Shown: piece after piece, positions 1-36,103 of the stretch | Position numbering within the stretch: the stretch's first letter is position 1 | Layout: the number at the start of each line of letters is the position of its first letter | Program-made: the position numbers and the translations under genes | IMG/VR virus record: IMGVR_UViG_3300032117_001271 | Location: 1 to 53,046 of that record | Reading direction: 5' to 3' (one strand) | Source: a virus | Length of the DNA stretch: 53,046 nucleotides | Notes under the pieces: model-generated | Seen by the model: the letters and a program-made list of their open reading frames with translations, nothing else | Told to the model about the DNA's origin: nothing | Database searches by the model: none

Positions 1-427
1 CTCTTAACATCCAGCTATGCTTTTTATGTGCATCTTGACGGTCGGCTAAGAAATTGCTTAATCCATGATCGCCATTTTGTTCTGCCATTTCAAAAGTAAT
101 ACGGAAAATATTAGCCATTTTTTCGCTATCTTCTAGTAATTCACGCAACATTGTTTGAAAATCTGGAACTTCGTTTTCGTCACGAACATTAGTTAGCATA
201 CTAAACTTTTGTAAACTTGCAGGTGTGTATATTTGTAATGCACGTAATTGTTCTGCAAATGTATCTATGCTTCCGTATACTTCTTCGTATATAGTTCCGA
301 ATAATCCGTGTAGTTGTGTGAACAACGGACCTTCTACGTTCCAGTGGAAGTTATGTGCCTTTAGATAAAAACTAAATTCACTAGCAAATGCTGTTTTAAG
401 AGCTAAATGATACTTGTTATGTTCCAT
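1..427 (-). CDS. dps: Dps-like miniferritin (3' end outside window)
   Basis: Read by eye from the ATG at 427; the frame is open to the window edge, giving about 142 residues. It begins MEHNKYHLALKTAF and contains HNFHWNVEGPLF followed by LHGLFG and SIDTFAEQL. The spacing His28, His40, Asp55, Glu59 reproduces the two-His, Asp, Glu ferroxidase set of Dps (His51, His63, Asp78, Glu82 in E. coli), so the di-iron site looks intact. Family role: dodecameric cage that oxidises Fe(II) with peroxide and shields DNA. It is the last visible gene of a minus-strand operon and its ATG overlaps the stop of the gene before it (TAATG). It carries no capsid-targeting-like N-terminus, unlike its three upstream neighbours, so it probably acts in the infected cell. 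Family call is firm; the C-terminus is unseen. Confidence 0.88.
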   Translation of the reverse strand, partial: MEHNKYHLALKTAFASEFSFYLKAHNFHWNVEGPLFTQLHGLFGTIYEEVYGSIDTFAEQLRALQIYTPASLQKFSMLTNVRDENEVPDFQTMLRELLEDSEKMANIFRITFEMAEQNGDHGLSNFLADRQDAHKKHSWMLR

Positions 428-897
428 TATATACCGTATTTGTTTCTTTTAGGTTTAGCCACTGGGCTTACTGTATTATTTTGTCCAGGTTCATCGCTAG
501 TAGGAGTTCCTAGTCTATCAACTTTAAGTCCATGTCGTTTAGCCTGTTGTACAACATAGTCGTGTTCTATAGGACTAAATGGCATGATCAGACCTTCTTG
601 ACCTAAACGGTCTTTACCTGGAATATTACGATCGCCTGCCGCAATACTAACACCTAAACGATACATACCGTAAGGGTTATTATCGATTTCAACACCGATC
701 GGTCCTGGCATAGCATTGAACTGTTCTGGATTTAGTTTATCTCGAGCACTTCCGTATTCTGTGTTACCTTCTGAACGGCTGTGAACATCATGCGGATCTC
801 CGTCGTTAGGCACTCCTAACTTTCCGTGAGTGTGATCTTTGGCCTTGTATATAACTTTTTGGCCTTTGTTTTCAGAAATAAATTCTTTTGCTCTCAT
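427..897 (-). CDS. Putative capsid-packaged internal protein, 156 aa
   Basis: No known enzymatic fold recognised. The N-terminus MRAKEFISEN fits the T4 internal-protein pattern (basic start, E-F-I/L, then I/L-x-E cut site), with predicted cleavage after Glu9. The rest is paralogous to the last ~130 residues of the 1154-residue protein encoded just upstream: both carry a PY-x-x-YR-[FL]-G segment, an Asp/Glu-rich helix ending in QQA and the C-terminal tail SPVAKxKRNKYG. Start ATG at 897 overlaps the upstream stop (TAATG), with no clear Shine-Dalgarno, so translation is probably coupled. Inference: a virion internal protein injected with DNA; function unknown. Confidence is high that it is a gene, moderate for packaging. 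Confidence 0.75.
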   Translation of the reverse strand: MRAKEFISENKGQKVIYKAKDHTHGKLGVPNDGDPHDVHSRSEGNTEYGSARDKLNPEQFNAMPGPIGVEIDNNPYGMYRLGVSIAAGDRNIPGKDRLGQEGLIMPFSPIEHDYVVQQAKRHGLKVDRLGTPTSDEPGQNNTVSPVAKPKRNKYGI

Positions 898-3800
898 TAT
901 ACACCATACTTGTTGCGTTTTACTTTTGCAACAGGACTAATTTTATTTGTATCGGCTACTTCTTCGCTACGCATACTGCTTAATTTTTTAATTGGACCAG
1001 CTAGCGTATCTTTAGCGGCCTGTTGGATTATTTCGTATTCTTCATCTGTGAATACTGATAGCAAAGGATCTCCAGCCATAGGTCCTGCTGGAGGAATGTG
1101 GTTAGTGCCTTTACCGTCTGCAACAGCCATAGCAATACCAAAGCGATAACCTTGATAAGGACTTCCGTTAGATTTGTTTTGACTAATGCCTGGTATACTT
1201 AATCCGCCCTTGATAGCGGCAGAAGCGGCATCGGTATCCATCTTTGTAAAGTCAGCGTGTATATCACCCTCGTTAATAAAGTCTCTAGCTCTCATTTTTC
1301 TAATCCAATAATTTGCTTCTTTTATATTTAGCGGTTCTTCGGCAGGCGGATTATGAGCTGGGTGTTTAGGTTTAGCCAGACCTTTAGGACCATAATTGAT
1401 AGCATAGTCGTCATCTTTTGGACTCATATTAGTACGAACTCCGCTAGGAGAAGTGTGCGGTTTAGCAATCCCCATGCCTTTACGTGTTATGTCCATTAAA
1501 TGTAAAATCCATTCGCGACCTAATTTTTTAACATCGAACCCTTTTTCCCATAACGCTAGTTGTTGTTGTGGTGTAGCTTTAGGATCTTTAAGAATATTTC
1601 TTAATTGACTAAAACTCATACCAGTGCCGCGTGGAGTAGCTTCTAAACTAACTTTAACGTGTTCGTAGCCTTGGAATTTATTAACAGATTTCATTAATGC
1701 ATTGGCAATATTCATGCCTGCTTGATCTTCACCGACCATAATAATAATATTATCGTAACGTGGAGGTTTTCCTGGCAACGGATTAATTAATTCATGCTTA
1801 ATCTTTTGCATTAATGTACCGCCTTCGTGCGTAACAGTACTAATCTGTTTTGCATATTGCGGATACATTTTATGCCATGTTTGTACTTTTACACTTGTTG
1901 GTATTGGATCATTTTTACCTTCAGCATTTCCAATAAACAAGTATGGATCACCACCTACTTCTTGTGCTTTTTTAATCGTATAATCAAATAACTGTTCGTG
2001 TCCAATATGTCCAACAAAAGACCCGATGGCTACTACTGCTGTTTTGTTAGAATTTTCGCGAGGACGCTCTTGTCTTGCACTTGCCTTAGCGGCTAGTTTA
2101 GCACTAATAACATCTCGCTGTTCTTGACTAGTAATTTTAATAGGACCTAATCGACTATTAATAACAATACCTTCATAGTCTTTACCTAACAAGTCTTTAC
2201 CAACGATATTTGGATCGTTGATAATTGCTTTTTCTAATTCTAATTTAACAGGAGCTAGTTTTTCTTCAACTTCTTTTCTTAATTGTACACTAGCACGGTC
2301 ACGTTTGCCGTGTGTATCTGAAACAATGCGTTTAAGTTCATCAATATTATCTAGAACATTGATAATTTCAGTTACATCTAAAGGTTTATTTTGTGTAAGT
2401 GAATTACTAATGAACATTACACTTCCTTGCTGTCCAATGCTAGTAATAGTTTTAATAATCTTGCCAGCATCTGGAACATCTTCACCAGTAGTTGCATCTG
2501 CTACACGGAATGGTACTAGTGCTAATTGTACACCTTTAGGAAGTTTGTCGTAGTGTATACCTACAAATTTTAATTTGCCTTCTGGAGTTTCTGTGGCAAA
2601 TGGTAAAAACAATACTTCGCAAGTTACTTGCTTATTCATAAGCAACTCTGGGCCTGCGGCATCGTCGACTAGTTTAACTGCTTTAATCATTTCGTTAAAC
2701 AAGTCGTCAAACATTTTAGCACGGCCTAAGATTTCAGGATCTTGCGTACCTTTAGCTTGATGATATTTTAAAAAACTTGCTTCATATCGAGGAGCAGTAT
2801 TACTAGTACCCATGAAAGGCTTGCCTTCTGAGTCTTTACCAAAACGTCCACCGAATCCGTCTACTTTAACGTTTAACGGAATATTTTTTAAATGGAATTG
2901 TCCGTTACCTTGATGTAATTCGTCTACTAGATCTAAGAAGTCAATAGCTTTTAGATCTTTCATATGAGGCATATTTTTTCTAAGTTGAGCTTTAACTTCT
3001 GCCTCATTAATTTGTTCAGTTGGTTGAGCTGGACTTCTCCAGTCTGGCCACGTACCTGCGGCAATTGCGTCTTTTCTATGCTTGCCGTATTGTAACTTCT
3101 TACCAGCTTGATCTTGTGTTGGCTGATATTCACGTTTGAATTTTTCTAAATCTAAAAATTCGCCTTCATATTCTTTTGCCATTTCAACAGCAATTGGTCT
3201 TAGATTTTGTAATCCAAGTTTTTCTAACATCTGATCAACGGCAGAAAACTTAATTGCGGCATCGCCCTGTGGATCGTCACGTTCAATCATTTGAGCACCT
3301 GGCTCAAATAAAATTTCAAAGAAACGTTGTACTGTTTCTTGTTGTTCTTTTTGATTTAGATATTTTCCTATTAAATCAACAGTACCTAAAAAACTCCATT
3401 GTAATTTTAAATCTTCTGGACTAGGCTCTGCGTTAGGATTGTGTCTTAAAAACAGTTTTTTAAACTGACTTGCTAAATTTTGGTCGTATGCTCGTTCTGG
3501 TGCGGCTACTGGTTGCACCACCGGTAATTGTTGTTGCGGATTTTCTGGATGAGGTAATGTCTGGGGTTCACCAGTTTTTTCGTCATCTGCCGGTCCGTAA
3601 GGTTCGCTTAGACCACCGCCTTGCTTACCTGATACACCAAACGAATATTTTGAAACATGATCTGGTGCTACGTTTGTGACCTTAGCCTTACCACGTCCAG
3701 CAGAAGTTTTAACATGAGCGTGTACTTTAATCGCACCTGCTAATGCTCGATAAAGATATTTGTGAAATACACCTTTGACATTGTTAGTTACATCGCTCCA

Positions 3801-4361
3801 TTCAGAACTGTGACTAAACTTGAACCAATCATTAGGAACTCCGTTTTCGTATCCTCCAAATTCAAAGTCGATTTGAATTTTAATTGGAGGATTAGCAAAC
3901 TGGAATAGACCGTTATATTGTTCGTTACCTGCACCAAACCCTAAAAAAGTTGTATCGCCTATTTTTTTATTTGTATGTTTTGTTAAAAAATCTTTAACTA
4001 ATGGCTCTAAATCTCTATCGCATTGTGTATCGATGTCGCCAACTTTTGGTTTATGTTTAGCAAACTCTTCGTCACTAATACCTTCTGTATTAAAAAAGTG
4101 TAAACTACTTCCGCTTAGGAATTCTTTACTAGATAGTAGTTTAGGTTCCCATAAATTCTTTTTAGTTTGTTTATGGAACGCCGCATTAATGTCGTGTAGC
4201 AACTTATTTAGAAGTCCAACCATGTATGTACGGTTATGTACTTCTAAATTAATTTTATCTGCGTAGTGTACTGGCTCGCCTTTTTCTGCATCGCCGATAC
4301 TTAGGTTGCCGCCTTCATTGATAGCAGATGATTGACGAAAAAATAGCTCTCTTAAAAACAC
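897..4361 (-). CDS. Putative packaged polyprotein with three nucleotidyltransferase-like modules, 1154 aa
   Basis: Starts with GTG at 4361, preceded by AAGGA. N-terminus MFLRELFF then I14-N15-E16|G17, a T4-prohead-protease-like site. Module 1 (about 80-235): GSS at 84-86, D109-I-D111 and D165, like a pol-beta/MNT nucleotidyltransferase. Pro/Gln-rich linker 265-290. A second site, I451-N-E453|A, precedes module 2 (about 490-750): K499-V-D-G502, E730-G-I-V and K742, motifs I, IV and V of ATP-dependent DNA/RNA ligases. Module 3 (about 773-930): H785-I-G-H788 and a Ser-rich S-x-x-x-R segment near 916-921, like NMN/cytidylyl transferases. A third start-like segment, MRARDFINE|G (1023-1032), precedes a copy of the downstream 156-aa protein. 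Individual fold calls rest on motifs only. Possible role: RNA/DNA end modification or NAD-type chemistry immediately after injection. Confidence 0.7.
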   Translation of the reverse strand: MFLRELFFRQSSAINEGGNLSIGDAEKGEPVHYADKINLEVHNRTYMVGLLNKLLHDINAAFHKQTKKNLWEPKLLSSKEFLSGSSLHFFNTEGISDEEFAKHKPKVGDIDTQCDRDLEPLVKDFLTKHTNKKIGDTTFLGFGAGNEQYNGLFQFANPPIKIQIDFEFGGYENGVPNDWFKFSHSSEWSDVTNNVKGVFHKYLYRALAGAIKVHAHVKTSAGRGKAKVTNVAPDHVSKYSFGVSGKQGGGLSEPYGPADDEKTGEPQTLPHPENPQQQLPVVQPVAAPERAYDQNLASQFKKLFLRHNPNAEPSPEDLKLQWSFLGTVDLIGKYLNQKEQQETVQRFFEILFEPGAQMIERDDPQGDAAIKFSAVDQMLEKLGLQNLRPIAVEMAKEYEGEFLDLEKFKREYQPTQDQAGKKLQYGKHRKDAIAAGTWPDWRSPAQPTEQINEAEVKAQLRKNMPHMKDLKAIDFLDLVDELHQGNGQFHLKNIPLNVKVDGFGGRFGKDSEGKPFMGTSNTAPRYEASFLKYHQAKGTQDPEILGRAKMFDDLFNEMIKAVKLVDDAAGPELLMNKQVTCEVLFLPFATETPEGKLKFVGIHYDKLPKGVQLALVPFRVADATTGEDVPDAGKIIKTITSIGQQGSVMFISNSLTQNKPLDVTEIINVLDNIDELKRIVSDTHGKRDRASVQLRKEVEEKLAPVKLELEKAIINDPNIVGKDLLGKDYEGIVINSRLGPIKITSQEQRDVISAKLAAKASARQERPRENSNKTAVVAIGSFVGHIGHEQLFDYTIKKAQEVGGDPYLFIGNAEGKNDPIPTSVKVQTWHKMYPQYAKQISTVTHEGGTLMQKIKHELINPLPGKPPRYDNIIIMVGEDQAGMNIANALMKSVNKFQGYEHVKVSLEATPRGTGMSFSQLRNILKDPKATPQQQLALWEKGFDVKKLGREWILHLMDITRKGMGIAKPHTSPSGVRTNMSPKDDDYAINYGPKGLAKPKHPAHNPPAEEPLNIKEANYWIRKMRARDFINEGDIHADFTKMDTDAASAAIKGGLSIPGISQNKSNGSPYQGYRFGIAMAVADGKGTNHIPPAGPMAGDPLLSVFTDEEYEIIQQAAKDTLAGPIKKLSSMRSEEVADTNKISPVAKVKRNKYGV

Positions 4362-4363
4362 AT

Positions 4364-4738
4364 TTAGTCCTTATAACGTCCGTTAGAATGATGTGTTGTA
4401 TGTTCGTCATACAATTTTTCACATGCCTGGCTAAGTGTATCTTCGTTTATGTCGTCTGGAAGTTCACGAATAGGAAATTTTTTAATATAAACTTTATAAG
4501 ACTCTTCAACAGCCTTTTTAAAGATTTCGGGTTTAGGATCTTTCTTACCTTCTTTTAAATCTAAAAATTCACTTAAAGCTGGGTACAAATAACGACGATA
4601 GCAATGATCATCGTTTTCCATGAAATGTACTAGGTCTTCTGCAAGGTCATAGTTAATCTCACGGGAGCCATCTTCTCTTGGCATTACAAAGTCAGAATCT
4701 TTAAAAAAAGAACCTTCAAATAGTTCACGTATACGCAT
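4364..4738 (-). CDS. Putative capsid-packaged small acidic protein, 124 aa
   Basis: Not a recognised family. N-terminus MRIRELFEGSFF matches the capsid-targeting pattern with L6-F7-E8|G9 as predicted cut site, and resembles the start of T4 Alt. The body is acidic, Asp/Glu-rich and predicted helical, with no Cys-rich or membrane segment. ATG at 4738; a GATAAATA late-type box lies about 46 nt upstream. It is the first gene of the late unit that continues into the 1154-aa polyprotein (next start lies 2 nt past this stop, with AAGGA inside the 3' end). The location supports late expression and packaging; function is unknown. Confidence 0.7.
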   Translation of the reverse strand: MRIRELFEGSFFKDSDFVMPREDGSREINYDLAEDLVHFMENDDHCYRRYLYPALSEFLDLKEGKKDPKPEIFKKAVEESYKVYIKKFPIRELPDDINEDTLSQACEKLYDEHTTHHSNGRYKD

Positions 4739-4784
4739 TTTTAAGCCCGTTAAAATAAATCAGCAGAAAACTCTGCGGTTAGAG

Positions 4785-4792
4785 TATTTATC
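4785..4792 (-). promoter_or_regulatory. T4-type late promoter box (GATAAATA)
   Basis: GATAAATA on the minus strand, one mismatch from the T4 late consensus TATAAATA, in the only non-coding gap (69 nt) between the clpA-operon tail and the packaged-protein genes. A GCAGA/TCTGC hairpin lies between box and start. Confidence 0.55.
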
Positions 4793-4807
4793 GCTTTTAC
4801 TACGAGT

Positions 4808-5410
4808 TTATTTTTTAACAATGCGCTCTACTTTAGCAATACTGCCGCCCAAGTGCATTTTTGCTAGTAAAAGATTGTTGTTACCTGTGATATAGAAGTG
4901 TTTTCCACCCCATGTGCGCGGTCTTAGCAAGTCCTTAATGCAACTCTTAGTGAGTTTAACTTTAGGATTTGTCTCAGCCCATTCGATAAATGCACTATGT
5001 TCTTGCGTAGTTTTGCCCAATGTAACTCTGAATTCAAAGTCCATCTTAGGCATTAGCACCGTTCCTTCTTCTAAATTACCGGCAGGAACACTGATATATT
5101 TCACATTATCTTCGCTAATCTTTGCTAGTACTTCTGTATCTTTTTTGTTGTTAGTATAGATACTGATCCAAGGACTTTCGACACGAACATCTATGTCTTT
5201 CATTTTGCTTAATGCATTATGTAGTTTAAATGCGTAGTCCAAGTCCTCTTGAGTCTTAATATGGTGAGATTTAGCAGTTAATGTAATCTTTTTTAAGGTA
5301 TCAAGCGCACTATCCAGGTCATTTCTAAAATAACTCGCGCCGGAACATACCAACACAATCTTGTATTGGTATTTTCCTCTAAATAAGCGTGTAGTGGTCT
5401 TATACTCCAT
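4808..5410 (-). CDS. Conserved-looking phage protein of unknown function, 200 aa
   Basis: No family recognised. Soluble, mixed alpha/beta, Lys-rich, with hydrophobic strands (KIVLVCSG near residue 17, KYISVPAG near 105) and a basic C-terminus. Cys residues are few and not arranged as a metal site. It is the last gene of the dnaJ-def-clpA operon; its start overlaps the end of clpA by 11 nt, so translation is coupled to ClpA. That position might suggest an adaptor or partner for the Clp machinery, but nothing in the sequence shows this. It does not resemble ClpS. Confidence 0.65.
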   Translation of the reverse strand: MEYKTTTRLFRGKYQYKIVLVCSGASYFRNDLDSALDTLKKITLTAKSHHIKTQEDLDYAFKLHNALSKMKDIDVRVESPWISIYTNNKKDTEVLAKISEDNVKYISVPAGNLEEGTVLMPKMDFEFRVTLGKTTQEHSAFIEWAETNPKVKLTKSCIKDLLRPRTWGGKHFYITGNNNLLLAKMHLGGSIAKVERIVKK

Positions 5411-9028: not shown

Positions 9029-9058
9029 AGTCGTAAAAAAGCTCCAAATAATATAGTA

Positions 9059-9087
9059 ATTATACTATCTTAAATGAAGCCTGTCAA
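9059..9087 (-). promoter_or_regulatory. Consensus sigma70 promoter for dnaJ operon
   Basis: Minus-strand TTGACA (9087-9082), 17-nt spacer, TATAAT (9064-9059): both boxes perfect. The -10 lies inside an inverted repeat ATAGTA-ATTA-TACTAT (9053-9068) and inside the 16-mer AATATAGTAATTATAC (9050-9065, plus strand), which recurs with one change at the queD promoter. About 31 nt from -10 to the dnaJ ATG. Confidence 0.9.
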
Positions 9088-9096
9088 GATTTTGAA

Positions 9097-9270: not shown

Positions 9271-9280
9271 TTCAATTTCC

Positions 9281-9775: not shown

Positions 9776-9798
9776 GCTCGCTCCTAATTTTATACTAC

Positions 9799-22151: not shown

Positions 22152-22415
22152 TTACCAAGTTCCGCTTGGATATGTTTGTCGCACCCAAATATTAGCTGTT
22201 CCTGTGGTATAAGATGCTGTGCAATAGTAGATATAAGTTCCATCGAACGCCATCATACCAGCAGTATCTCCAGATTTACCTATACTGTGTGTAGGAGGTG
22301 TGGTCTGAGGATACAAATCATTAAAGTTGTTGTTTACTTTACTGAACGCAGTACGTAAAGGATCGCCTTTGCCATCGTTGGCTGTAGTTCCTAAATTGAT
22401 TGTTTGTTGTGCCAT
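22152..22415 (-). CDS. Mini tail protein with shared N-terminal module, 87 aa
   Basis: Residues 1-36 are the shared module (INLGTTANDGKGDPLRTAF, KVNNNFNDLYP); residues 40-87 form a small domain with a GDTAGMMAFDGTYIYYCTA strand pair ending PSGTW. It is thus an attachment module plus a short head, without a shaft: perhaps a decoy or plug for an unused fibre site or a remnant of a larger fibre. The ATG at 22415 overlaps the stop of the giant fibre gene (TAATG), so expression is coupled. Confidence 0.8.
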   Translation of the reverse strand: MAQQTINLGTTANDGKGDPLRTAFSKVNNNFNDLYPQTTPPTHSIGKSGDTAGMMAFDGTYIYYCTASYTTGTANIWVRQTYPSGTW

Positions 22416-28400: not shown

Positions 28401-31400
28401 TGAGCAACGTTATTACCAGCAGTTGGAGTAACTGGTGTGTTTAATAAAATTGCTTGTAGTACTGTGCTTAGACGAGCATAAGAGGCAACACAAATTGACT
28501 GTGTACCAGTTAATAACGATGTACCACTACTATAAAAACTCATAGCAGTATCGTAAGTCATACTGTTACTGTTACCACTTGAGTTATTGTACATGATGTC
28601 ATAAGTCAATGCATCGATGATATAACCAATATCGCGTTGTGATTTTGCGGCACTATAGTATGTGTTTGTACTTACATTGTAGTTTGCATTAATCCAAGCA
28701 GTAATTTCTTGTTGTACGAATGCTTTGTTTGCTTGTAAGATATTTTTAGCATTAACTTGGTAAGCAGTATTATAAGAAGTTGTTACTGGAGATGTCCAAG
28801 TAATAGTAGGAACTGCGGCAACACCATTGTTAAGAATATTAAGGATTGTACTAATATTATTTGCAACAGATGTTTGGCCGTTTGAACTAACACTTGGGCT
28901 AGTCAATCCAGCAATTAATGATCCAGTATAAGATATAGACTGTAACAACAATGCTAATTGTAAACCAGTGTAAGAATACTGAGGTTGTAATAATGTTAGA
29001 GCTTGTTTAACACTTTGATAATTTGTACTAAACACGTTATCATATGCCAATGCATTGATAAGATTGTTTAAAATTGTCTGTAATGTTGAAAAACTTCCAC
29101 CAAACGCAGTTAATGGATAGAATGGAGTTGAATTATCTAATGTAACAGTTACTTGTGGAACACTGAATGTATAAGTTCCAGCGGCTTGTGCAATTAAATT
29201 AGTAGTCAACTGAATTGTTGTACTGCCTGCTGTGTAATTTGGACTTACGTATGTCCAAGCAGGTACTCCAGTACCAGTGACTAATTGACCAGCAACAATG
29301 TTGTTTGCACTTGCAACAACAATAGTACTTGCACCACTTGCACCGCCACTTACATAAGTTGTTGTTGCAACAGTTACACTTTGTGAATAACTTGCAACAT
29401 CGTTAACTTGATAACGAATACCTTGAATAAAGAAACTGCAAGGTACTTGTGGTTTACGAACATCTAAACCAGTGTTAGCTGAACCTTGTACAGTTAAACT
29501 TGTACCGTTAGTACCAGATGCATTGGCACCAATGCTAATAATGTTACCATATAAACGACCAGAGAAACCGTCAATAAACTGTCCACCAGCAAATCTTGGC
29601 TCATTAATACTGCCACTAAAGCTAGCAGATTCTTGAGCATATGGTGATTTGGTCTTAATCTGCCCTTCGGCATCAAGTACCATCATGAATCCACCATGAC
29701 CTTGGCCGGTAATCAACTTAACGCGAGTAGCATCGTTTACCAAGAACATATCGATTTGTTTGTTGTTCAATGGTGTTGAATAGAAGTTACTTGGGTCGGT
29801 CAAGTAATGACGTCCATAAGGTAAACCGTTGTACAAGTGCCATGAACCGCCTGCTAGTACATTTGGACTTACATTAGAATTTGCAAAAGGATAACCCTGT
29901 AATACTGTACAATATAAAATATTACCACTAACGTTAGTAACAACAGCCTTGGCCGCAGTACCATACGGGTCGCTAGTTGCTACCATTAAGATTAAACCAA
30001 TCCAACTTGTTAACGCATTTGTTGTTGACAAGGTAGCTGTAATATAACCTGTTGTTGCACTGATTGTAATCGAATCACTAGATGCATAATCAACACCGCC
30101 GCGATTTAAACTTGGGAAGTTGATTTGTCCAACTAGTAAGTTATCAACAACAACATCTCTGTAGAAGAACGCACTACGCCAGTTACTTTGACTGATACGA
30201 TTTAACGGACGAATAATTGTACGACGGAAGTCATCGCCGCGAATTGTAACGTTTGCTGGAATCTTAATTGGGAAATCTTCGTAGTAAATACCGCTTTCTA
30301 CAAAAATAGTAATATTAAGATTAGCAACTGTTTCGCCAAAGTCTAATGTTTCGTTAGCTACAAAGAAACCAGGCTGTGTCATCTTAACATAGATAGTATC
30401 ATAGCTTTGTGTAGTACCAGGTGTGTATGAAACAATAACACCTTGTGCTCCACTAGTTCCGCCGATTAAAATCTTACCTGGAAGAATGTGTACGTCGCCT
30501 GGAGTACCTTGGTCAACGTAACCGCGACCACCGTTACTAAATTGAATTTGATATAGTCCATCTCCATAATTAGGAGTAGCAGGCGCACTACCATAACCAT
30601 TAGTAATAATACTGTAGAATGTGTTGTAGTTTCCAGTAATGTTTGTTATTGCACCAACTGCCGATGTCTTTGTAGAATCATAAGGTGTTTGTGTGACAGC
30701 TGATTGATAACGTAATGCTTGTGTTTGATTTAACACTTGTAGCATCAATTGAAATGAAAAGTTCAGACCATCTAATGTTTCTACTCGTTGTGTACCAATT
30801 GCAATAGTTTGTGCAGAAGCATTTTTATAATATGCTTTACCAGCGTTTACACTTTGGAAGTTAGCTGTAATACCAGCGTTTGAATCACTAGTAATAGCAT
30901 CAATAACTAATGCATCAACCAAATAGCCAACATCACGATAGCATAGCGATTGGTTGTAGTTAAATCCGCCAGTGTATTTTCCATTTAAGTAACTTACAAC
31001 TGAGCTAGCAATGGTAGCATCGTTTGATTCAATAATTAAGAATGCAGGATAAAATTCAACATTGGTGTAACTTAATACGCTTGGGAGTGCAGGAGTTGTA
31101 CTACCTGAACTGTTAATAATATTTTCAGCAATAGTTAGCAATGCACCAATTTGAGTAGAAGCATTGCTACTACCAGTAGAAGAAGTTTGTGTGTTCGTAT
31201 ATGTATATCCAGGAACTAATCCTAATACACCAGAAATACTTTGACCAGAAGCAATATCAGACACAACGTAAGACATACGATTCTTAATAGTCAAATACAT
31301 GTATGTAGCTTCTGTGCTTCCACTTGTATATAACAATGCTTGTTGTGCCGCAAATACAGTTGCCGCAGTTGAATTAACATTGCTATTTGTATATGTTATA

Positions 31401-34045
31401 TCATAAGCAATCGCTTCTGCAATATACTTCATTGCATTTTGGAATTGTGTTGCACCGATACTAGGTGCACCATATTGACTAACAAAATAGTGCCATGCAT
31501 CTTCTGCAATGAACGCAACATTTAAGTTAATAGCAGTAGCGGCCGCAACATATCCAGTAATTGCACCTAATGGTGTACTCGATAATGTTGGAGTCGGACG
31601 AGATGGGCTTCCTGTAATGGTAGTTCCGTTAGGACCATATGTTAACAATGTATTAAGTGTTGTAAACAATGTATTAAGTGTACTGGTAACGTTGGTATCG
31701 TTAATAACTGTAAAGTTTGGACTTACTAAGTCTGCACTAATTGTTAAACCACTAAATGGAACACTTGAATTTTGACTTATAATTGCATTGTAAGCAAGAA
31801 ATAATTCTGTACCACTGCCTAAGAAACTAATACTTGGGTTTGATAAATTTGCATTGTAGTAAGTTTGTGCAATAGCTTCTGATGAATCACTGATAATTGT
31901 TTGAATAGAAGCAATATTAGCAATAACACTATTAACTAAAGTATCACCAGATGTTACACCAGTTAATGTTTTGTTGATGTATTGTGGAATTGTTGTTTGA
32001 TACAATGTAGTATTAGCTGTAGTACCTAACGGACTATTGATGACAATATTATTAACAAGAGTCTTAAGGTAATTAACCGCATTAATTGTCGCAGTTAATT
32101 CAGTACTTTGAATTTGTAAAGTACCGTTGGTATAGTTGTAACCCCAGTACTGCATACCTGCGTATAAACTTTGGCTATTACCACCGTACATTACATCATA
32201 CACTAAAGACCATACAATGTATTGTACGTCACGTTGGCATGTTGTTTGACTATAAGATAAACTTGAATAGTTAGCTGTTAGATATCCAACAATTTCAGCT
32301 TGAATAAATGAAATATTGTTTAACAATAATTGTTTAATAACAACTTGCTCGGCAGTTGTATTTGAATTAGAAGGATAGGTCGGAGTACTAGCACTAACAC
32401 CACTTACTAAATTCTTAATAAGTGCAATGTTGGCTGTAATCGAATTAGCCGCATCTGGATATGCTGTTGCAAAGTTACTAGAGCCGACGGTGATTGCTAA
32501 AATTCTAGTTTGTAATTTTGTTAATGCATAGGTAATTTCAGCAGTATTCAGACCAGTACCGTAGTGGGCAAAGTTTAAACCAACCATTGTACTTTGGAAG
32601 TTGCTACCGATGGCTAGGTCGTTTTCTAATGCTGTAACAACTTGATTAATATATTTTTGAACTAGGCTACTGCTATAAGAATAAGTTCCAATCTGTGTTT
32701 GAATGTAACCAATAGCATCTGTAATTTGTGCTAATTGATTTTGAATTATGTTTTGGTTAGCAAGTGTTGGATTGAACAATGAGCTAACTTGAGTAATACT
32801 TTGGAAGTTAGAACCTAACAACAAGTCATACCCGACAGCATCGATAATATTTTTAAGAATGCTGTAGTAACCTGTACTACTGAATGTGTTAACGTACTTG
32901 CTATTGATATATGCAATAGTTTCTTGTTGAATAAATGTTCTATTTGATTCTAATAAACTTTGTGCATTAGTGTATACAGTATTGGCACTATTACCGCCAG
33001 TAGCAGTTGCAGATGTCACTAACGACTGAGTCTGACTTTGATTGATAGTATATGTAATTGTTTGGCGATATGGACCTGCTTCTAATTGTGACAAGCTGAT
33101 TAAGTTTTGTGCTTGTAATGCGGCCGCACCAACAGTCTTATAAGCATACTGCCACCCGCGTCCATTACGTCCAGCTGGTACATGAACTTGAGAATCGTCA
33201 CCACTAGTACTTACATACAAGTTTACGTTACTATAATATGTGCTATTATCTACATAATATTTTGTAGCGGCTTGCAAATCACTGCTGGTATTAATAAGTC
33301 CTTGTCCTGACAACGGTGTTGGATGGTCGCTTAGTTCTAACGGACCAGTCATTGTATCGCCGCCTCTGTATACAACATCTTTACGTTGCATAACTTCGGT
33401 AGCTAGGTAGTTACTGGTTAAACTTGAGTTATAATCTGCATCTCCAGTTTGTGGTAAACTAGGTTGAGCTCGAGTTTTCAAAGCGGCTGATACTGTGTAT
33501 GTTCCTGCTTTTGTACTATTAACACCTGATCCAACAGATACTGTTGACAAATTACTTGCTACACCGGCAACGTAATGATTAATACCATAATTAACTGTAA
33601 CTGGAAGTTGGCCAAATGAAGTATTATCAGCAGTGTATAAATTATTAAATGAATTAACAACTGCTGGGCTTGGATCTACAAAGTTACCAACATAGTTGTG
33701 CGCCACGTTCATAGACGCATTTAATGTTGGACTTGTGTCAGAAACTAATTTAGCGGCGGTAGTTGATAAGTTAATACCTGTCGAAGTAAACGCAATATTA
33801 ACAGTTCTGTCATTACTAGTTAATGTTCTTGCACTTAATTTAGTTCCGTCGGTGCTACCTGCAATCAATTGATTAGCAGTATATACTGTACCATCTGACA
33901 AACTTCCAAGAGTTAAAGCACCACCTAGACCGAAAACAGCATAAAGTTCTGTAAAATTCTGGTTAACCTTGATAAAAGATTCGCGGATACTATCGCCGGT
34001 ACCGTCATTTCCTTGGATACCTGTATTAATTACTTTTTGTGTCAT
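22415..34045 (-). CDS. Giant tail fibre, 3876 aa
   Basis: N-terminal module INTGIQGNDGTGDSIRESF, KVNQNFTELY (5-36). A region encoded at about 29.4-30.6 kb holds GIYYEDFPIKIPANVTIRGD, GDDFRRTIIRP and related pectate-lyase-like beta-helix strands. Several ~150-residue helical repeats with the core RD-[VI]-x-Y-[IL]-V-x-[AS]-L-x-[YI]-D flank it (28.4-33.2 kb). A Thr/Ser-rich beta shaft follows, then a C-terminal domain with DLAEYYEGDAEYDVGTVV and GRVPCKVVGRVKKGDML, a conserved fibre terminus in related phages that may cap or be cleaved during trimerisation. Cotranscribed with iscA (3-nt gap). Likely receptor-binding or long tail fibre. Confidence 0.9.
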   Translation of the reverse strand: MTQKVINTGIQGNDGTGDSIRESFIKVNQNFTELYAVFGLGGALTLGSLSDGTVYTANQLIAGSTDGTKLSARTLTSNDRTVNIAFTSTGINLSTTAAKLVSDTSPTLNASMNVAHNYVGNFVDPSPAVVNSFNNLYTADNTSFGQLPVTVNYGINHYVAGVASNLSTVSVGSGVNSTKAGTYTVSAALKTRAQPSLPQTGDADYNSSLTSNYLATEVMQRKDVVYRGGDTMTGPLELSDHPTPLSGQGLINTSSDLQAATKYYVDNSTYYSNVNLYVSTSGDDSQVHVPAGRNGRGWQYAYKTVGAAALQAQNLISLSQLEAGPYRQTITYTINQSQTQSLVTSATATGGNSANTVYTNAQSLLESNRTFIQQETIAYINSKYVNTFSSTGYYSILKNIIDAVGYDLLLGSNFQSITQVSSLFNPTLANQNIIQNQLAQITDAIGYIQTQIGTYSYSSSLVQKYINQVVTALENDLAIGSNFQSTMVGLNFAHYGTGLNTAEITYALTKLQTRILAITVGSSNFATAYPDAANSITANIALIKNLVSGVSASTPTYPSNSNTTAEQVVIKQLLLNNISFIQAEIVGYLTANYSSLSYSQTTCQRDVQYIVWSLVYDVMYGGNSQSLYAGMQYWGYNYTNGTLQIQSTELTATINAVNYLKTLVNNIVINSPLGTTANTTLYQTTIPQYINKTLTGVTSGDTLVNSVIANIASIQTIISDSSEAIAQTYYNANLSNPSISFLGSGTELFLAYNAIISQNSSVPFSGLTISADLVSPNFTVINDTNVTSTLNTLFTTLNTLLTYGPNGTTITGSPSRPTPTLSSTPLGAITGYVAAATAINLNVAFIAEDAWHYFVSQYGAPSIGATQFQNAMKYIAEAIAYDITYTNSNVNSTAATVFAAQQALLYTSGSTEATYMYLTIKNRMSYVVSDIASGQSISGVLGLVPGYTYTNTQTSSTGSSNASTQIGALLTIAENIINSSGSTTPALPSVLSYTNVEFYPAFLIIESNDATIASSVVSYLNGKYTGGFNYNQSLCYRDVGYLVDALVIDAITSDSNAGITANFQSVNAGKAYYKNASAQTIAIGTQRVETLDGLNFSFQLMLQVLNQTQALRYQSAVTQTPYDSTKTSAVGAITNITGNYNTFYSIITNGYGSAPATPNYGDGLYQIQFSNGGRGYVDQGTPGDVHILPGKILIGGTSGAQGVIVSYTPGTTQSYDTIYVKMTQPGFFVANETLDFGETVANLNITIFVESGIYYEDFPIKIPANVTIRGDDFRRTIIRPLNRISQSNWRSAFFYRDVVVDNLLVGQINFPSLNRGGVDYASSDSITISATTGYITATLSTTNALTSWIGLILMVATSDPYGTAAKAVVTNVSGNILYCTVLQGYPFANSNVSPNVLAGGSWHLYNGLPYGRHYLTDPSNFYSTPLNNKQIDMFLVNDATRVKLITGQGHGGFMMVLDAEGQIKTKSPYAQESASFSGSINEPRFAGGQFIDGFSGRLYGNIISIGANASGTNGTSLTVQGSANTGLDVRKPQVPCSFFIQGIRYQVNDVASYSQSVTVATTTYVSGGASGASTIVVASANNIVAGQLVTGTGVPAWTYVSPNYTAGSTTIQLTTNLIAQAAGTYTFSVPQVTVTLDNSTPFYPLTAFGGSFSTLQTILNNLINALAYDNVFSTNYQSVKQALTLLQPQYSYTGLQLALLLQSISYTGSLIAGLTSPSVSSNGQTSVANNISTILNILNNGVAAVPTITWTSPVTTSYNTAYQVNAKNILQANKAFVQQEITAWINANYNVSTNTYYSAAKSQRDIGYIIDALTYDIMYNNSSGNSNSMTYDTAMSFYSSGTSLLTGTQSICVASYARLSTVLQAILLNTPVTPTAGNNVAQITNLTAASSTEVSRISTLVSQLSSYVSSGSWGSVTRNVPTYTSQTSGLVTDFTTITGNASTALVTPTVTYISNGGNLLINFETAGNRSMLANDFTQVNDLGYGVLATNNGLTEQVSTFTYYCHTAYWALNGAQIRSVAGSNAQGDYGLRASGYDLTQLPNIVTLANDQVQTARIYKQGITLSYMTPTSSVPALSIWVTGYKYTPYNNSEVEIDHTLQGGGVTRYLVSSIQHTGIEVLVNGTSQDVLQLTFSTTGQSSATGLQYAVYDGQQVTIRVLQNQKVLNVATVHPTRPSTSLQYSSNLASIYRIITYNLSESTGETLVGLGTPFIAVVSAGSTSSSVIQVTNPTGTIAIGQLVTGSGLNGTYTVYAVTLVSGTTYAVTLTSPPGSNPIGQTYTFQAQTLTTSIIQTDSSFNYFQLSSDPANVINADPTAYSSGYAKGTCVSYTVSAGPTYTLVVAMSTAPVVGQVVGGLGLNGNIVATVSGPSGGNYTVTLSKAANTTTPPVAGVPIWFTNYTQGATIGDNKIAITSIANSATISQINNGSYVTTWGGRVHRITGYVGPLSTATATYVSGGTSTSGSPTTLVVSSVGGTIIAGMVVYSSGGYTAGQTVVGTPVYNSLTGQTTITLSATANIAGTQTGTIYFSQVVSSVTGLPVASNAYLIIDPNSTLNLASNGLTPAALTFAGAQTSVNGTSYEFVTYNVPNTQTNAAPTPVLPPVDSWLTISGSSSAPFNNTNAYNINLPVQVVGAISVTTIQVPSTAGLAVGMIVSSTTPNAIIPPNCIVQSVSLDTYTFTVSPAVWIPSGGNITAQFPTTVASIQVINAGAGEYATAPTITIASPGNGGVQATATATVTNGYVNGPLLTLINGGTGYTGVPTVTASYGTATFLAVLSSNTVFSQTITAETGNAISTVNQVTVAYPATLSNTITGTATAVAASGNVITLSSSSGLSVGNQIIFTTPVNGSALGNLVSGTPYYILSVGVGSITISGTQNGTVFSPLSTGTATGTMNFSATAFTFGTPFAISAASASGSGTSTYAVTFTVASMNVVNGSYYRVYGSSNPLFNGTWPCTSTTNTGVNTIVLTYPSNPGSFTGTAYVALETTTSSSSTLGIGRPFSLTANNSLRVGCSAGTTGQIIVNISTCRVTGHDFLGIGTGGYNTTNYPNTIYGPPSLSANPANQVLEETVGRVFYVSTDENGIFRVGRFFTVDQGTGTVTFSASIALSNLSGLGFKQGVVVTQFSTDATMNDNSTSIVPVQSAIRSYVDYRLGVTQSGAPVSAANLIKPGFLPLNGILPMSANLNLGNNTINNVGLPINATDATNKQYVDAINYLAQQKDVNINNPVPGNILVYDTTTGYVSATATGVNTITLVASANSTVSTLEVGDTIIFAGTSQGGVTNGTYYITGISGNNITVSAALDGSTFAVTANYTGGSGGFTWTSSRWRNILVPQGTGSSAVTGGSTTAGTATITYTSGSTLFPIGSTVVITGCVPITYNGIFTVTAASAGSVSFANSYSSGSLTAYGTIIGNSVSISYNGGAGGSLTSEINSNSIVDSMVISTANIQQSKLLLNVPGATYTTTVESTAASASPTVISNGTTLSSYPTGTPQQIQAANGLASFNSAVFTQTNGWVNLQNASNANGDGTGNYKTGIPQTALQFMSAGTVLGNLTGVAGNANPTYPQPISFANIVTNGNAVTNQWFTSTGIMTVSSVSTGTFNGSTVSGLGNHYTTTNITQSGGSNPHAASSIVQTGTDGTIDVAGLNLNSYPTVSLSGTTGVFFTTPGSYNWQYMSVSGSSNPSGTIQLGSGGYIDTSSSSGLFVNSIVAGGANPSSNPVAPGGTGNAGSVYGKATFEGQFSLVGGSTMIATYSADLAEYYEGDAEYDVGTVVIFGGDKEITTTTTINDTALAGVVSSTEKAAYVMYSDCPGLKNLVALAGRVPCKVVGRVKKGDMLTTSATAGYAVKALNPTLGAIIGKALEDKDYGEAGIIEVAVGRN
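28400..33200 (-). repeat. Degenerate ~150-residue helical repeats inside the giant fibre
   Basis: Recognised cores (approximate positions): IIDALTYDIMYNNS 28.61 kb, NALAYDNVFSTNYQS 29.04 kb, RDVGYLVDALVIDAIT 30.91 kb, KYIAEAIAYDITYTNSN 31.41 kb, RDVQYIVWSLVYDVMYGG 32.21 kb, VTALENDLAIGSNFQS 32.61 kb, IIDAVGYDLLLGSNFQS 32.84 kb. Most are preceded by LL-x-x-N-x-x-F-[IV]-Q-x-E-I-x-x-[YW]. Unit limits are approximate. Confidence 0.7.
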
Positions 34046-34048
34046 TTA

Positions 34049-34372
34049 TTAAACTCCGAAGCTGGAACCACAGCCGCATGTTGTTGTTGCGTTAGGATTC
34101 TTTATAGTAAAACTACTGCCCATTAATTCTTCTTTATAATCTATCTCTGCACCTTGCAGATATTGCATGCTCATACTGTCTACTAGAACGCGAAATTCGT
34201 CTAAAGGAATTTCAAAATCGTCTTCGTTGACTTCTTCGTCAATGGTAAAACCGTAGCTAAATCCGCTACAGCCACCGCCTTGTACAAAAGTACGTAGTGC
34301 TACTTTGGGATTGTTTTCTTCTAGTAGAATATCTTTGATTTTTGTCTTTGCAGATTCGGAAATAGTAATCAT
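34049..34372 (-). CDS. iscA: A-type Fe-S cluster carrier (IscA/ErpA/HesB-like), 107 aa
   Basis: Binds and transfers Fe-S clusters or iron. The three ligand cysteines are present: Cys35 in [11 protein letters not shown] and Cys99/Cys101 in CGCGSSF. Full family length. The frame extends upstream to a TTG at 34399, but the ATG at 34372 has a GAGGG ribosome binding site and gives the standard MITISESA start; a GATAAATA box (34390-34397) sits 17 nt upstream, inside the would-be extension. It is the first gene of the unit that continues into the giant fibre, so this Fe-S carrier appears to be expressed late with tail proteins. Confidence 0.93.
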
Positions 34373-34389
34373 AATTGCCCTCGATATGA

Positions 34390-34397
34390 TATTTATC
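34390..34397 (-). promoter_or_regulatory. T4-type late promoter box for iscA-fibre unit (GATAAATA)
   Basis: Minus-strand GATAAATA, 17 nt upstream of the iscA ATG and followed by GAGGG. Position and spacing are those of a T4 late promoter. Confidence 0.6.
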
Positions 34398-34431
34398 AAA
34401 GGTATTTTATAACCTTAATGTAAATACAATT

Positions 34432-34719
34432 ATGTATATTGGTACTGAATTCCGTGAAAACTTCTATGTGCGTACCAGTAAAAAGGGTAACGTACATACA
34501 TATAACCGCAAAAAAAGAGTGGTAATCTTTCGTTGTGATAGTTGCCAGGAAGTGTTTCACCGCGACAAAGGGGCGATGGATCCTAATCGTTTAAACAACA
34601 ATTATTATCATGTTTGTGGGTGCTGTGATGTTAAAAAATTTGCCCAATCAAAGGGCGTAGAATCTCGAAAAGTTTGGGATATGCCAGCAAGCAGTCTTAA
34701 GACACTTGACCAACTTTAG
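34432..34719 (+). CDS. Small zinc-ribbon-like protein, 95 aa
   Basis: Contains CDSC (35-38) and CGCC (near 62-65) separated by a basic, polar stretch with FHRDKG and LNNNYYH: a treble-clef or zinc-ribbon arrangement similar to small HNH-like phage proteins, but the full His-Asn-His triad is not obvious. Probably binds DNA or RNA. A lone plus-strand gene between two minus-strand units; the stop overlaps the convergent stop at 34716 by 4 nt. A TGTAAATA sequence at 34419-34426 is a weak promoter candidate. Function unknown. Confidence 0.7.
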   Translation: MYIGTEFRENFYVRTSKKGNVHTYNRKKRVVIFRCDSCQEVFHRDKGAMDPNRLNNNYYHVCGCCDVKKFAQSKGVESRKVWDMPASSLKTLDQL

Positions 34720-35528
34720 CTTTTATAATCCGGATCGCCCGGATGTATTTGACTATATCCACGCTTCCATTCTTTTCTATATTGATCAGCTGGAATAAGT
34801 CCAGAAAAATCCAATTTCTTAGCAACTCTATCTTTGAGTTGCGGGTAAAGTTTTTGTATATACGCTTTATCTTTACTGCGAGGACCTATCAAGGTATAAC
34901 TTCCCGGCTCAGTTTCATAACCTACAAACCACTCGGTAGGTGCAGTCTTTCTTGGAGGATTACCGCTGGTATATCCGTTGTCATGTATTTGTAATTTTTT
35001 AGGATCTGTATAATCGTTCTGCGGTTGGGGACCAGTATCATCAGTCGATTGAGCTAAGGGATTTTTACCTTCCTTGCGCCACGGTGTAATTTTTACACCT
35101 GTCGCACGAGCATGATCAAAAAAACCTCTGGGGATTTTTAAGTCAGGATCATATTGGATTTCGACTACAAATGGTGATTTTATAGGAATAGGTTTAAATA
35201 CCTGTTCTTCTGTTTCATATTTGTAATGCATCATAGCACCGACTTTAGGAACTACTTTGTAGCCGTGCTTACGTAAAGCATTTTTATCTATAACAAATTG
35301 AGCCACACCATGCCCGTAGGGAAAATGCAAGTATTGATTACGAGTTAGACTTATGCGTGGAATAGATTCTTCACCATTTTCTTGATCCATGTCTTGATCA
35401 AAGTCAAAGGGCTCTTGAGGTTTTAAAGCACCACTTTTTAATATCTTCATCATAGTAGGACCGTCTGGCACTCCGTGATATAAGAATTGATCGTTTACAC
35501 CCTCGTTTAATAGTTCCCAGATTTTCAT
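34716..35528 (-). CDS. Putative packaged ADP-ribosyltransferase-like protein, 270 aa
   Basis: N-terminus MKIWELLNEG matches the capsid-targeting pattern: L7-N8-E9|G10. Residues 15-135 have the layout of ART/DarT/KptA-like folds: FLYHGVPDGPTM with a candidate His, ILKSGALKP, ISLTRNQ (the S-T/Y-x-x region), FVIDKNAL, and a later E-rich segment YETEEQVFKP where the catalytic Glu would fall. Fold assignment is from motif order only. The C-terminal 90 residues form a second small domain (WFVGYETEPGSYTLIGPR). T4 Alt is a packaged ART that modifies host RNA polymerase at injection, a direct precedent. Starts 8 nt after the SOD stop. Confidence 0.7.
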   Translation of the reverse strand: MKIWELLNEGVNDQFLYHGVPDGPTMMKILKSGALKPQEPFDFDQDMDQENGEESIPRISLTRNQYLHFPYGHGVAQFVIDKNALRKHGYKVVPKVGAMMHYKYETEEQVFKPIPIKSPFVVEIQYDPDLKIPRGFFDHARATGVKITPWRKEGKNPLAQSTDDTGPQPQNDYTDPKKLQIHDNGYTSGNPPRKTAPTEWFVGYETEPGSYTLIGPRSKDKAYIQKLYPQLKDRVAKKLDFSGLIPADQYRKEWKRGYSQIHPGDPDYKS

Positions 35529-35533
35529 AGCAA

Positions 35534-35541
35534 TATTTATA
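35534..35541 (-). promoter_or_regulatory. Perfect late promoter box (TATAAATA) before ART-like gene
   Basis: Exact TATAAATA on the minus strand, overlapping the SOD stop codon and ending only 5 nt before the next ATG. A transcript from it would be leaderless or nearly so; chance match near a coupled start is the alternative. Confidence 0.45.
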
Positions 35542-36103
35542 CGGTTCTAGCTAAACCAATCCTACTTGAGATAATATTCCAGTTCATAATTTTCCACTGG
35601 TTATTGAGATATGATTTTTTGTCACTTCCGTAATCGAATTGAAAAGAATGTTCCCACCAATCAACCAACAGTATAATGTCCATCTTAATTTCGTGATTTT
35701 TAATTGTTTTAATCTTGCCATCACGGGCTAGATATACCCATCCACTACCTTGTATTTTCATAGCTTCTTTTTCAAAAGCCTCTTTAAATCTATCAAAAGT
35801 TTTAAAATGTTTGGTAATAAATTCGCCAGCAGATCCATCCGGAGTGTTGGAAGAGCTAGGTTTCTGAAATTGTGTAAAGTACAAATCGTGTAAGAACGCA
35901 CCTGCTTCATTAAAGTCGGCGTCGCCTTCGCCATCGTTAAATTTATCTACATAGGCTTTGTATAATTTGCCATAATGATAACGTATAGTATCTTCGCTAA
36001 TACTAGGGTCTAAAGCATCTTTAGCATAAGGCAATTTAGTTTGCACCAGGGTTTTAGGTGTTTTGCCTTCATTAAGGGTAATATGCTTGATAAAATTGAA
36101 CAT
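35537..36103 (-). CDS. sod: Putative capsid-packaged Fe/Mn superoxide dismutase, 188 aa
   Basis: Converts superoxide to oxygen and peroxide. The four metal ligands are conserved: His43 (RYHYGK), His72 (GAFLHDLYF), Asp148 and His152 (DWWEHSFQFDYG), plus gateway Tyr51 and GSGWVYL. Position 68 is Gly, as in Mn enzymes, where Fe enzymes have Gln; the matching second-shell Gln of Mn enzymes seems to be His137 here, so metal choice is open. N-terminal extension MFNFIKHITLNEG precedes the usual LPYAKDAL and ends in L10-N11-E12|G13, a prohead-protease-like site. Two late-type genes follow one another here (SOD, ART-like). No Shine-Dalgarno is visible. Confidence 0.9.
   Translation of the reverse strand: MFNFIKHITLNEGKTPKTLVQTKLPYAKDALDPSISEDTIRYHYGKLYKAYVDKFNDGEGDADFNEAGAFLHDLYFTQFQKPSSSNTPDGSAGEFITKHFKTFDRFKEAFEKEAMKIQGSGWVYLARDGKIKTIKNHEIKMDIILLVDWWEHSFQFDYGSDKKSYLNNQWKIMNWNIISSRIGLARTV

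Follow-up and report, generated by a model that had tools for sequence, protein, structure and literature searches.

In phage T4, the internal proteins and Alt are packaged into the head and are cut by the prohead protease gp21 behind a short N-terminal leader, each as a single cargo (PMC3012670, PMC9026906; papers given by PMC accession are cited throughout from excerpts of their text). A second group, the polyvalent proteins, comprises multidomain proteins predicted to be injected with DNA, and peptidases embedded in them have been proposed as releasers (Iyer et al., 2017; PMC5512222). In addition, cytidylyltransferases were found in virions of cyanophages: T4-GC190 in S-SM1, by mass spectrometry (Sullivan et al., PMC3037559), and ORF154 in S-CREM2, with three unique peptides (PMC10665884). 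The subject of this text is a viral stretch of 53,046 bases (IMG/VR record IMGVR_UViG_3300032117_001271, positions 1 to 53,046; this whole stretch is called the window) that encodes five proteins with candidate leaders of the T4 type. One of them, 1154 amino acids (aa) long, seems to be a polyprotein built of three modules of nucleotidyltransferase type plus a fourth domain. The five proteins are likely to be internal head cargo whose leader is cut by a gp21-type protease, and the 1154-aa protein to be a cargo polyprotein whose modules are swapped at the predicted cleavage sites. From the sequences we infer cleavage, packaging, injection and a role of these enzymes in the host.

Five proteins with leader-like N-termini

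Three of the five genes form a tight run from 4738 to 427 encoding the 124-aa, 1154-aa and 156-aa proteins in this order, and the start of the 156-aa protein overlaps the stop of the 1154-aa protein by 1 base. The second group is a gene pair encoding an ADP-ribosyltransferase (ART)-like protein and a superoxide dismutase (SOD). The five N-termini that a preliminary description of this DNA had called capsid-targeting-like all read exactly as given there in the translated open reading frames (ORFs), which are as follows (leaders are predicted, and a bar marks the predicted cut).

427..870, minus strand: 156-aa protein, body; relative of the C-terminal domain in the 1154-aa polyprotein (BLASTP, 29% identity, E=2e-13)
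871..897, minus strand: MRAKEFISE|N, leader of the 156-aa protein (ORF 427..897; translation and 14-member family alignment A2)
897..4361, minus strand: candidate polyprotein ORF, 1154 aa, GTG start (translation)
4364..4738, minus strand: 124-aa protein with leader MRIRELFE|G (BLAST hits)
34716..35528, minus strand: 270-aa ART-like protein with leader MKIWELLNE|G at 35502-35528 (homologous loci)
35537..36103, minus strand: Fe/Mn superoxide dismutase with leader MFNFIKHITLNE|G at 36068-36103 (Pfam; homologues)

In the proposed scheme, a short amphipathic leader would place each of the five proteins in the scaffold core of the prohead. A gp21-type prohead protease would then cut after [ILV]xE and remove the leader, and the mature protein would stay by the DNA for injection. 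As a speculation from the domain types, the enzymes might serve RNA/NAD or nucleotide-cofactor repair, or counteract oxidative-stress or NAD/RNA-directed defence.

Conservation and exchange of the leaders

Relatives of the 1154-aa protein are encoded at 55 IMG/VR loci, from which 43 distinct chains of at least 700 aa, including the window's own, were compared; shorter chains and identical copies were omitted. The loci overlap, several coming from the same or near-identical contigs (e.g., L034/L035/L036 and L045-L048), and the counts are not independent. [ILV]xE stands immediately ahead of G[GS]N in 41 of the 41 rows that contain the N-terminus, two rows lacking it. The leaders vary in sequence and are 12-18 residues long, save for three with an insertion, and E16, G17 and N19 are invariant in the 25 sequences of alignment A1. 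The insertion, found in L020, L027 and L043, is a domain of about 115 aa between the leader and the GGN site (approximately aa 15-140), with an HExxH motif seen by eye from which it may be named metallopeptidase-like.

Module 1 of the polyprotein has homologues in isolated phages. In Vibrio phage Va1 and Xanthomonas phage X1, the annotated start is M-GGN, that is, the predicted mature end. Upstream of it Va1 has no in-frame start codon, and X1 has three possible starts with no Glu before GGN. The homologue in Campylobacter phage CP220 starts with MKLSELMFILE|GGN.

For the ART-like protein, 19 loci were found, and 13 full-length sequences (10 distinct, one 100% identical to that of the window) were used, with six partial ones omitted. 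The leader is mostly MKIWELL(N/D)E|GVNDQFLYHGVPDG; in L252 and L253 it is instead MRAEEFILE|AVGGNYLYHGVPDG, with the body conserved. Leader types have been exchanged at the predicted cut, and the leader is interchangeable and independent of its cargo. The HExxH domain inserted between leader and site in three polyprotein relatives also speaks for this independence. The assignment of ORF 34716..35528 as an ART is weak: no Pfam or NCBIfam match was found, the structure model has a predicted local distance difference test (pLDDT) score of 53, and the top Foldseek matches of this poor model, KptA/Tpt1, are weak (E>=0.11).

The SOD carries Sod_Fe_C (E=1e-21) and Sod_Fe_N (E=4e-12), both above the Pfam cut-offs, and its metal ligands are presumably the H, H, D and H visible by eye in YHYGK, FLHDLYF and VDWWEH. 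Among the best 80 of 143 homologous loci, 79 include the N-terminus and give 55 distinct sequences, in which the P1 Glu (E12) is kept in 55/55 and [ILV]xE[GNSA] in 50/55. Adjoining the ART-like and SOD genes, 34049..34399 encodes a short protein with CGCGSSF that by eye resembles an iron-sulphur A-type carrier, and a similar protein was seen by eye near the polyprotein gene of one relative (G002).

The leader form MR(I/L)xEL(F/L)E(G/N) of the 124-aa protein is kept in all 13 distinct BLAST hits, which share 42-100% identity and of which one is a contig near-identical to the window itself. Relatives of the 156-aa protein occur as standalone and tandem copies, often as tandem paralogues; their MRAKEF leader is near-constant, and the other family members are 28-51% identical to the window protein. 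In alignment A2, M1 and E5 are invariant, and R2 and F6 nearly so. No relative of this protein was found in the isolate-phage collection.

Modules and internal sites of the polyprotein

The leader, modules and internal sites of the 1154-aa protein are predicted as follows.

4314..4361, minus strand: leader MFLRELFFRQSSAINE|GGN, aa 1-16 (conservation; pLDDT<50 at aa 1-18)
3162..4313, minus strand: module 1, about aa 17-400, nucleotidyltransferase-like, SGSS...GDID (phrog_19290, E=5e-25)
3003..3011, minus strand: internal site INE|A, aa 451-453, linker of modules 1 and 2a (conservation; pLDDT<50 at aa 443-460)
2082..2984, minus strand: module 2a, about aa 460-760, KxDG ligase-like nucleotidyltransferase (invariant motifs)
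1464..2051, minus strand: module 2b, aa 771-966, GHxGH nucleotidylyltransferase with PPAT/NMNAT-type fold (phrog_3041/395; structure match)
1269..1295, minus strand: internal leader-like MRARDFINE|GD, aa 1023-1031, ahead of the C-terminal domain (standalone relatives; pLDDT<50 at aa 1019-1052)
900..1268, minus strand: module 3, aa 1032-1154, relative of ORF 427..897 (BLASTP)

Module 1 contains G84 S85 and G108 D109 I110 D111, invariant in the alignment and presumably forming the GS...DxD signature of Pol-beta-type nucleotidyltransferases, and it occurs standalone in Campylobacter and Vibrio phages. In module 2a, K499, D501, G502 and E730 G731 are invariant, with KVDG and EGI conserved; KxDG with the later motifs is what we take to be the signature of ATP-dependent ligases and covalent nucleotidyltransferases. 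Foldseek gave weak matches to DNA polymerase beta for module 1 (E=0.018) and to DNA ligases for module 2a (E=0.018-0.029). Because the structure search with the model of the whole protein was filled by matches of module 2b, the folds of modules 1 and 2a stay motif-based. In module 2b, G784 H785 G787 H788 are invariant, and comparison with PPAT/NMNAT structures gave Z 13.1 and a root-mean-square deviation of 3.0 over 149 aligned residues; both the GHxGH motif and the nucleotidyltransferase fold were thus found. In phage X1, module 1, a ligase-like protein and a nucleotidylyltransferase each have their own gene; these genes follow the order of the modules, interrupted by one further gene, and the ligase-like one has WKLDG.

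Four stretches of the predicted structure (aa 1-18, 443-460, 969-1017 and 1019-1052) have pLDDT<50 and are probably disordered. At four of the 14 [ILV]xE sites of the protein, the next residue is G, A, S or N, and these four (E16, E453, E1015 and E1031) all lie in the low-confidence stretches (P=0.0007). The otherwise variable middle linker, between modules 1 and 2a, contains [ILV]xE in 43/43 chains; the Glu occupies the exact column in 37/43, since the linker varies in length, and in 25/25 of alignment A1. Ahead of module 3, MRARDFINE|G resembles the MRAxEF N-terminal leaders of standalone copies (L022, L023 and L028). The preliminary description had taken the 1154-aa protein as a single cargo; with internal sites E453|A, E1015|A and E1031|G, it is instead polyprotein-like. 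A Pfam search found no convincing peptidase domain within it, Peptidase_S48 remaining below threshold (E=0.13).

A single leader on the polyprotein would thus load all four modules, of which three are nucleotidyltransferase types and one is unknown. Inside the head, at least some of these modules would then be cut apart by the same protease at the [ILV]xE|G/A sites of the disordered linkers. The leaders may, however, be real and cut while the internal sites serve as flexible tethers that stay uncut, the 1154-aa protein being injected whole as a polyvalent protein. Multidomain proteins commonly have linkers rich in Glu and Ala. The evidence for the leaders is independent of internal cutting, and within the polyprotein no [ILV]xE|G/A-type site was found at the junction of modules 2a and 2b. 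A packaged, unprocessed protein is known in the virion RNA polymerase of N4 (Iyer et al., PMC5512222). Such tethers are unlikely in view of the middle-linker site kept in every row, the leader form of an internal MRARDFINE|G that is N-terminal in standalone copies, and the fact that the modules of relatives differ at just these places.

Module arrays and the GVAE linker

Relatives of the polyprotein show insertions, exchanges and arrays of unrelated modules at [ILV]xE junctions. Other relatives have long C-terminal chains (to 1919 aa) of unrelated modules linked by QGVAE|G/A. The array linker, GVAE|G, is conserved at the DNA level as AAGGTGTGGCGGA, and arrays of small unrelated modules joined by AAGGTGTGGCGGA(A/G)G were found in L017 (10252-12846), L156, L182, L226 and other loci, with seven copies of the linker pattern within one 865-aa ORF of L017. 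Recognised modules include an HD domain in the C-terminal chain of L031 (Pfam HD_4, E=2e-17), possibly acting on alarmone-type nucleotides, and a GNAT domain in L182. The window itself contains no GVAE array. Among bacterial genomes, no array was found in the GTDB set with the two-copy linker pattern at a spacing of 130-160 bases, the one spacing searched, and the array ORF of L017 (P0001) had no relative in the isolate-phage collection. No mention of 'QGVAEG' was found in the literature searched.

The conservation of the linker extends to its codons. In an amino-acid search of the relatives for GVAE[GA], Gly is encoded by GGT in 38/38 copies and Ala by GCG in 38/38, redundant copies counted. 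A scan of IMG/VR for AAGGTGTGGCGGARG gave at least 120 loci, and the GVAE frame of the linker 15-mer was the longest open frame in 191/193 hits among the matches listed. In 163 ORFs, from loci mostly picked by the DNA pattern itself, GVAE occurs 290 times, and GCG is by far the commonest codon for the linker Ala, against 10% of Ala codons overall in these ORFs. In the window and six relatives, GVAE occurs 10 times, and the form GGTGT(G/A)GCGGA was found in 4/5 copies in cargo-type genes (one copy in G003 being the exception) but in 0/5 copies in other genes.

The modules joined in this way recur in different company. Internal modules with a homologue in another ORF form 12 pairs; the neighbours differ on both sides in 10 of these and are shared on one side in 2. 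An earlier count, which gave different neighbours for 17/17 recurring modules with the end modules unclustered, is superseded by this recount, which covers all modules. Among array ORFs with a complete 5' end, [ILV]xE[GASN] was found within aa 4-30 in 47/113, against 103/1001 control windows (p=2e-15); this count excludes GVAE itself as well as two 1154-type polyproteins.

The DNA identity of the GVAE linker could also mark nothing but a recent duplication or the boundary of a mobile element, with no protease role. The DNA is indeed conserved beyond the need of the protein, as the dominance of GCG and the 38/38 counts indicate. However, the GVAE frame is almost always the longest open one, VAE obeys the [ILV]xE rule, GVAE|SASAGATSSASIAS is like the head-protein region described below, and leader-type starts are frequent in array ORFs relative to controls, and this explanation is therefore also judged to be on the unlikely side. 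A protease role and a DNA-level role of the linker can be compatible with each other. Under the cargo interpretation, modules would be inserted, exchanged or chained at such sites, often via GVAE|G, and the phage would change its injected toolkit by cassette swap. We see an even chance that this amounts to combinatorial cargo: one leader would carry unrelated modules, the protease would cut at a standard linker, AAGGTGTGGCGGA would be both protease site and DNA joining point, and the composition of this prokaryotic-virus polyprotein would be reshuffled between phages and delivered ready-made to the host.

Prohead protease and major head protein

The gp21-type protease family PF03420 (Peptidase_S77) was found in 3/12 records of relatives (G002, G003 and G004), including two of the three longest, and the G003 protease also matches phrog_207, head maturation protease. 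In all three, the major head protein (phrog_138) is encoded two genes on from the protease. The gene between them, examined in G003, matches a function-less family and is taken as the scaffold by its position only. At residue 41, the head proteins have a sequence like [LIV]xE|SA(T/S)AG(S/A)TSAGN(I/V)ATL, which is their predicted cut site. A pattern written after this region had been seen matches 6 of 1188 proteins, namely 3 head proteins and 3 cargo candidates, compared with a mean of 0.67 and a maximum of 4 in 60 rounds of shuffling. One of these cargo candidates reads GVAE|SASAGATSSASIAS, resembling the head-protein region. In G005, the cargo candidate encoded by 82844..83422 is 192 aa long, starts with the leader MKIKELLE|G and has GVAE|SASAGATSSASIAS in its interior.

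These observations bear on whether the leader might be a signal or anchor for the tail, the membrane or a phage-made compartment, removed by a different Glu-specific protease. The T4 internal proteins IPII and IPIII, which read MKTYQEFIAE|A, share the leader form, and three cargo candidates have the same cut-region-like signature as the major head protein of the three relatives. Although ORF 51582..52202 of the window by eye encodes a ClpP-like protease, another destination of this kind is very improbable.

Motif frequency and virion proteomes

A capsid-targeting-sequence-like (CTS-like) regular expression matches 50/1188 called N-termini in the window and six relatives, against 35/4312 internal-Met controls, and reaches p<0.05 in 4/7 genomes (not in G004, G006 and the window). 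In the window alone, it matches 3/51 N-termini against 3/218 controls (p=0.084) and catches two of the five N-termini first named. The pattern [FL][ILVMF].E reaches p<0.05 in 1/7 of the same genomes (G002), and an earlier scan with a looser motif gave little enrichment. Near the polyprotein, CTS-positive genes are more frequent, with 18/179 within 10 kb, a distance chosen afterwards, against 25/1002 elsewhere (p=1.5e-5; polyproteins uncounted).

The cyanophage virion proteins offer a comparison with proteins found by mass spectrometry. T4-GC190 of S-SM1 starts with MKKFSAFLNE|A and the cytidylyltransferase of S-CREM2 with MKNFSSFLTE|A (common form MK(K/N)FS(A/S)FL(N/T)E|A), and module 2b is related to both in single BLASTP comparisons (E=3e-6 and 8e-8, respectively). 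Other S-CREM2 virion proteins start similarly: a SAM hydrolase with MKDFDSFLEE, a kinase with VKRFDAFLTE and a hypothetical protein, detected by one peptide, with MKDLHSFLTE. The S-CREM2 authors warn that such virion proteins might be contaminants (PMC10665884). Four looser patterns gave p=0.0015, 0.0045, 0.046 and 0.074 for S-CREM2, the best with 6/28 against 5/166; the test used 218 coding sequences (CDS), with gp83 omitted. A Cas9-like nuclease reported in the S-CREM2 virion (L238, 7704..10313, minus strand) carries close to the N-terminus RFASFMAE|A, which resembles a capsid-targeting leader, and segments of ORF160, also detected in that virion, resemble by eye those of array ORFs.

Several results weigh against the cargo interpretation. 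PF03420 was not found in the 53-kb window, nor in the control genomes, though the family does match in relatives, and it is absent from 9/12 records of relatives, including the 192-kb G001, all of which are possibly incomplete. The P-HM2 homologue has neither a leader nor an upstream start, 5/55 SOD homologues among the best 80 of 143 loci depart from [ILV]xE[GNSA], and no clear early [ILV]xE is seen in the genes at the place of the 124-aa protein in G001, G002 and G003, which start with MLLNEFF, MLLKEMW and MKLTEFF. E1031 is Glu in 9/24 rows with a residue there, and module 3 is often absent or replaced; this site is not universal because the module 3 end is the most exchanged part. For the Campylobacter phage IBB_35, the protein masses found are, according to its authors, mostly those predicted. 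The S-CREM2 virion proteins are not enriched with the pre-fixed regular expression (p=0.375). Finally, the CTS-like expression matches 11 of 155 T4 CDS, of which just three are known internal proteins; the 155 lie within the first 100 kb, where some that were split, truncated, very short or internal-start were omitted. Aside from these counts, the product of T4 gene 61.1 (L341, 18966..19130) starts with MKTFKEFIKED, close to the T4 internal-protein leader.

The S-CREM2 and T4 counts would suit the view that the N-termini are chance or general amphipathic Glu-containing starts, and the proteins normal enzymes of the infected cell in a phage with many metabolic genes: the motif is present in 8/152 T4 CDS other than the known internal proteins, and the S-CREM2 enrichment fails with the pre-set expression. 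Chance is nevertheless a quite improbable source of the conserved sites, the leader swap at the cut, the M-GGN homologues, the clustering by the polyprotein and the relatives detected by mass spectrometry. The bare motif is low in precision, and the leaders are weakly above chance by motif and strongly so by comparison. The case has to be made by comparison: the sites are conserved, leaders are swapped and the sites are placed where domains join. In view of the T4 matches and the pattern-dependent S-CREM2 enrichment, motif statistics were dropped as principal evidence.

For the cargo interpretation as first proposed, the core remains the likeliest explanation, with support from site conservation, the leader swap, the gp21-type protease of relatives and the cyanophage proteins detected by mass spectrometry, while the ART identity is weakened and the single-cargo view of the 1154-aa protein falls away. 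That the pattern might be equally common at unrelated early genes holds in part for the bare motif, as the T4 counts indicate.

Other features of the window

The window is a fragment with a GC content of 38%. Its genes, as assigned by eye, include a ClpA-type ATPase, DnaJ, a deformylase, PhoH, a clamp-loader subunit, a GroES-like protein, ClpP and large tail-type proteins, a content that fits a T4-like myovirus, presumably one from fresh water. Further ORFs are 44362..45552 (396 aa, without a confident Pfam match) and 22415..34045 (3876 aa). Late-type boxes had been ascribed to several of the five genes; the plus strand has no exact TATAAATA, and the minus strand has two, one of them upstream of an unrelated gene and the other just a few bases before the ART-like start. 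This scarcity and placement rule out late promoters as support.

Comparison with known systems

The content injected by large phages besides DNA is mostly unknown. If the proposed scheme is true, a leader and [ILV]xE linkers would make injected effectors readable from the sequences of uncultured phages, and the scheme would help to account for nucleotidyltransferases in cyanophage virions. The conservation of the linker in DNA would hint at how modules are exchanged, and candidates for host takeover and anti-defence could be drawn from a catalogue of the modules. With a polyprotein that the head-maturation protease divides, the simple internal-protein scheme of T4 would gain a modular form. 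No description of leader-tagged cargo polyproteins divided by a prohead protease in T4-like phages was found in the open-access literature searched.

How does this locus compare with its closest relatives? Like IPI-III and Alt of T4, the window proteins have a short N-terminal leader ending in [IL]xE, conserved leaders with divergent bodies, and variable cargo. They differ in that the cargo would include a SOD and a nucleotidyltransferase chain, in that there are several leader types, and in that one leader would serve several modules with internal sites; no such polyprotein is described in the excerpts of PMC3012670 and PMC9026906. phiKZ and SPN3US, likened here by description and not by sequence, similarly have a set of head proteins that a prohead protease cuts, as well as ejection proteins entering the cell, and the excerpts of PMC5694885 and PMC7411985 do not mention the division of a polyprotein into enzymes. 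The virion cytidylyltransferases of S-SM1 and S-CREM2 share with this locus their relation to module 2b and a leader, and are present in virions. Unlike module 2b, they are standalone, and their leader is not remarked on in the excerpts of PMC3037559 and PMC10665884.

With the polyvalent proteins, the window polyprotein shares the presence of several unrelated domains per chain (three nucleotidyltransferase types and module 3, with HD, GNAT and HExxH domains in relatives or array ORFs). Release by embedded peptidases is proposed for those proteins, whereas the sites here fit an external prohead protease, and in the excerpts of PMC5512222 'prohead protease' is mentioned in the reference list only. 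Overall, the proposed system of the window joins the ideas of T4 internal proteins and polyvalent proteins; to these it adds a protease from outside the chain and, as seen in many relatives, a linker that is fixed.

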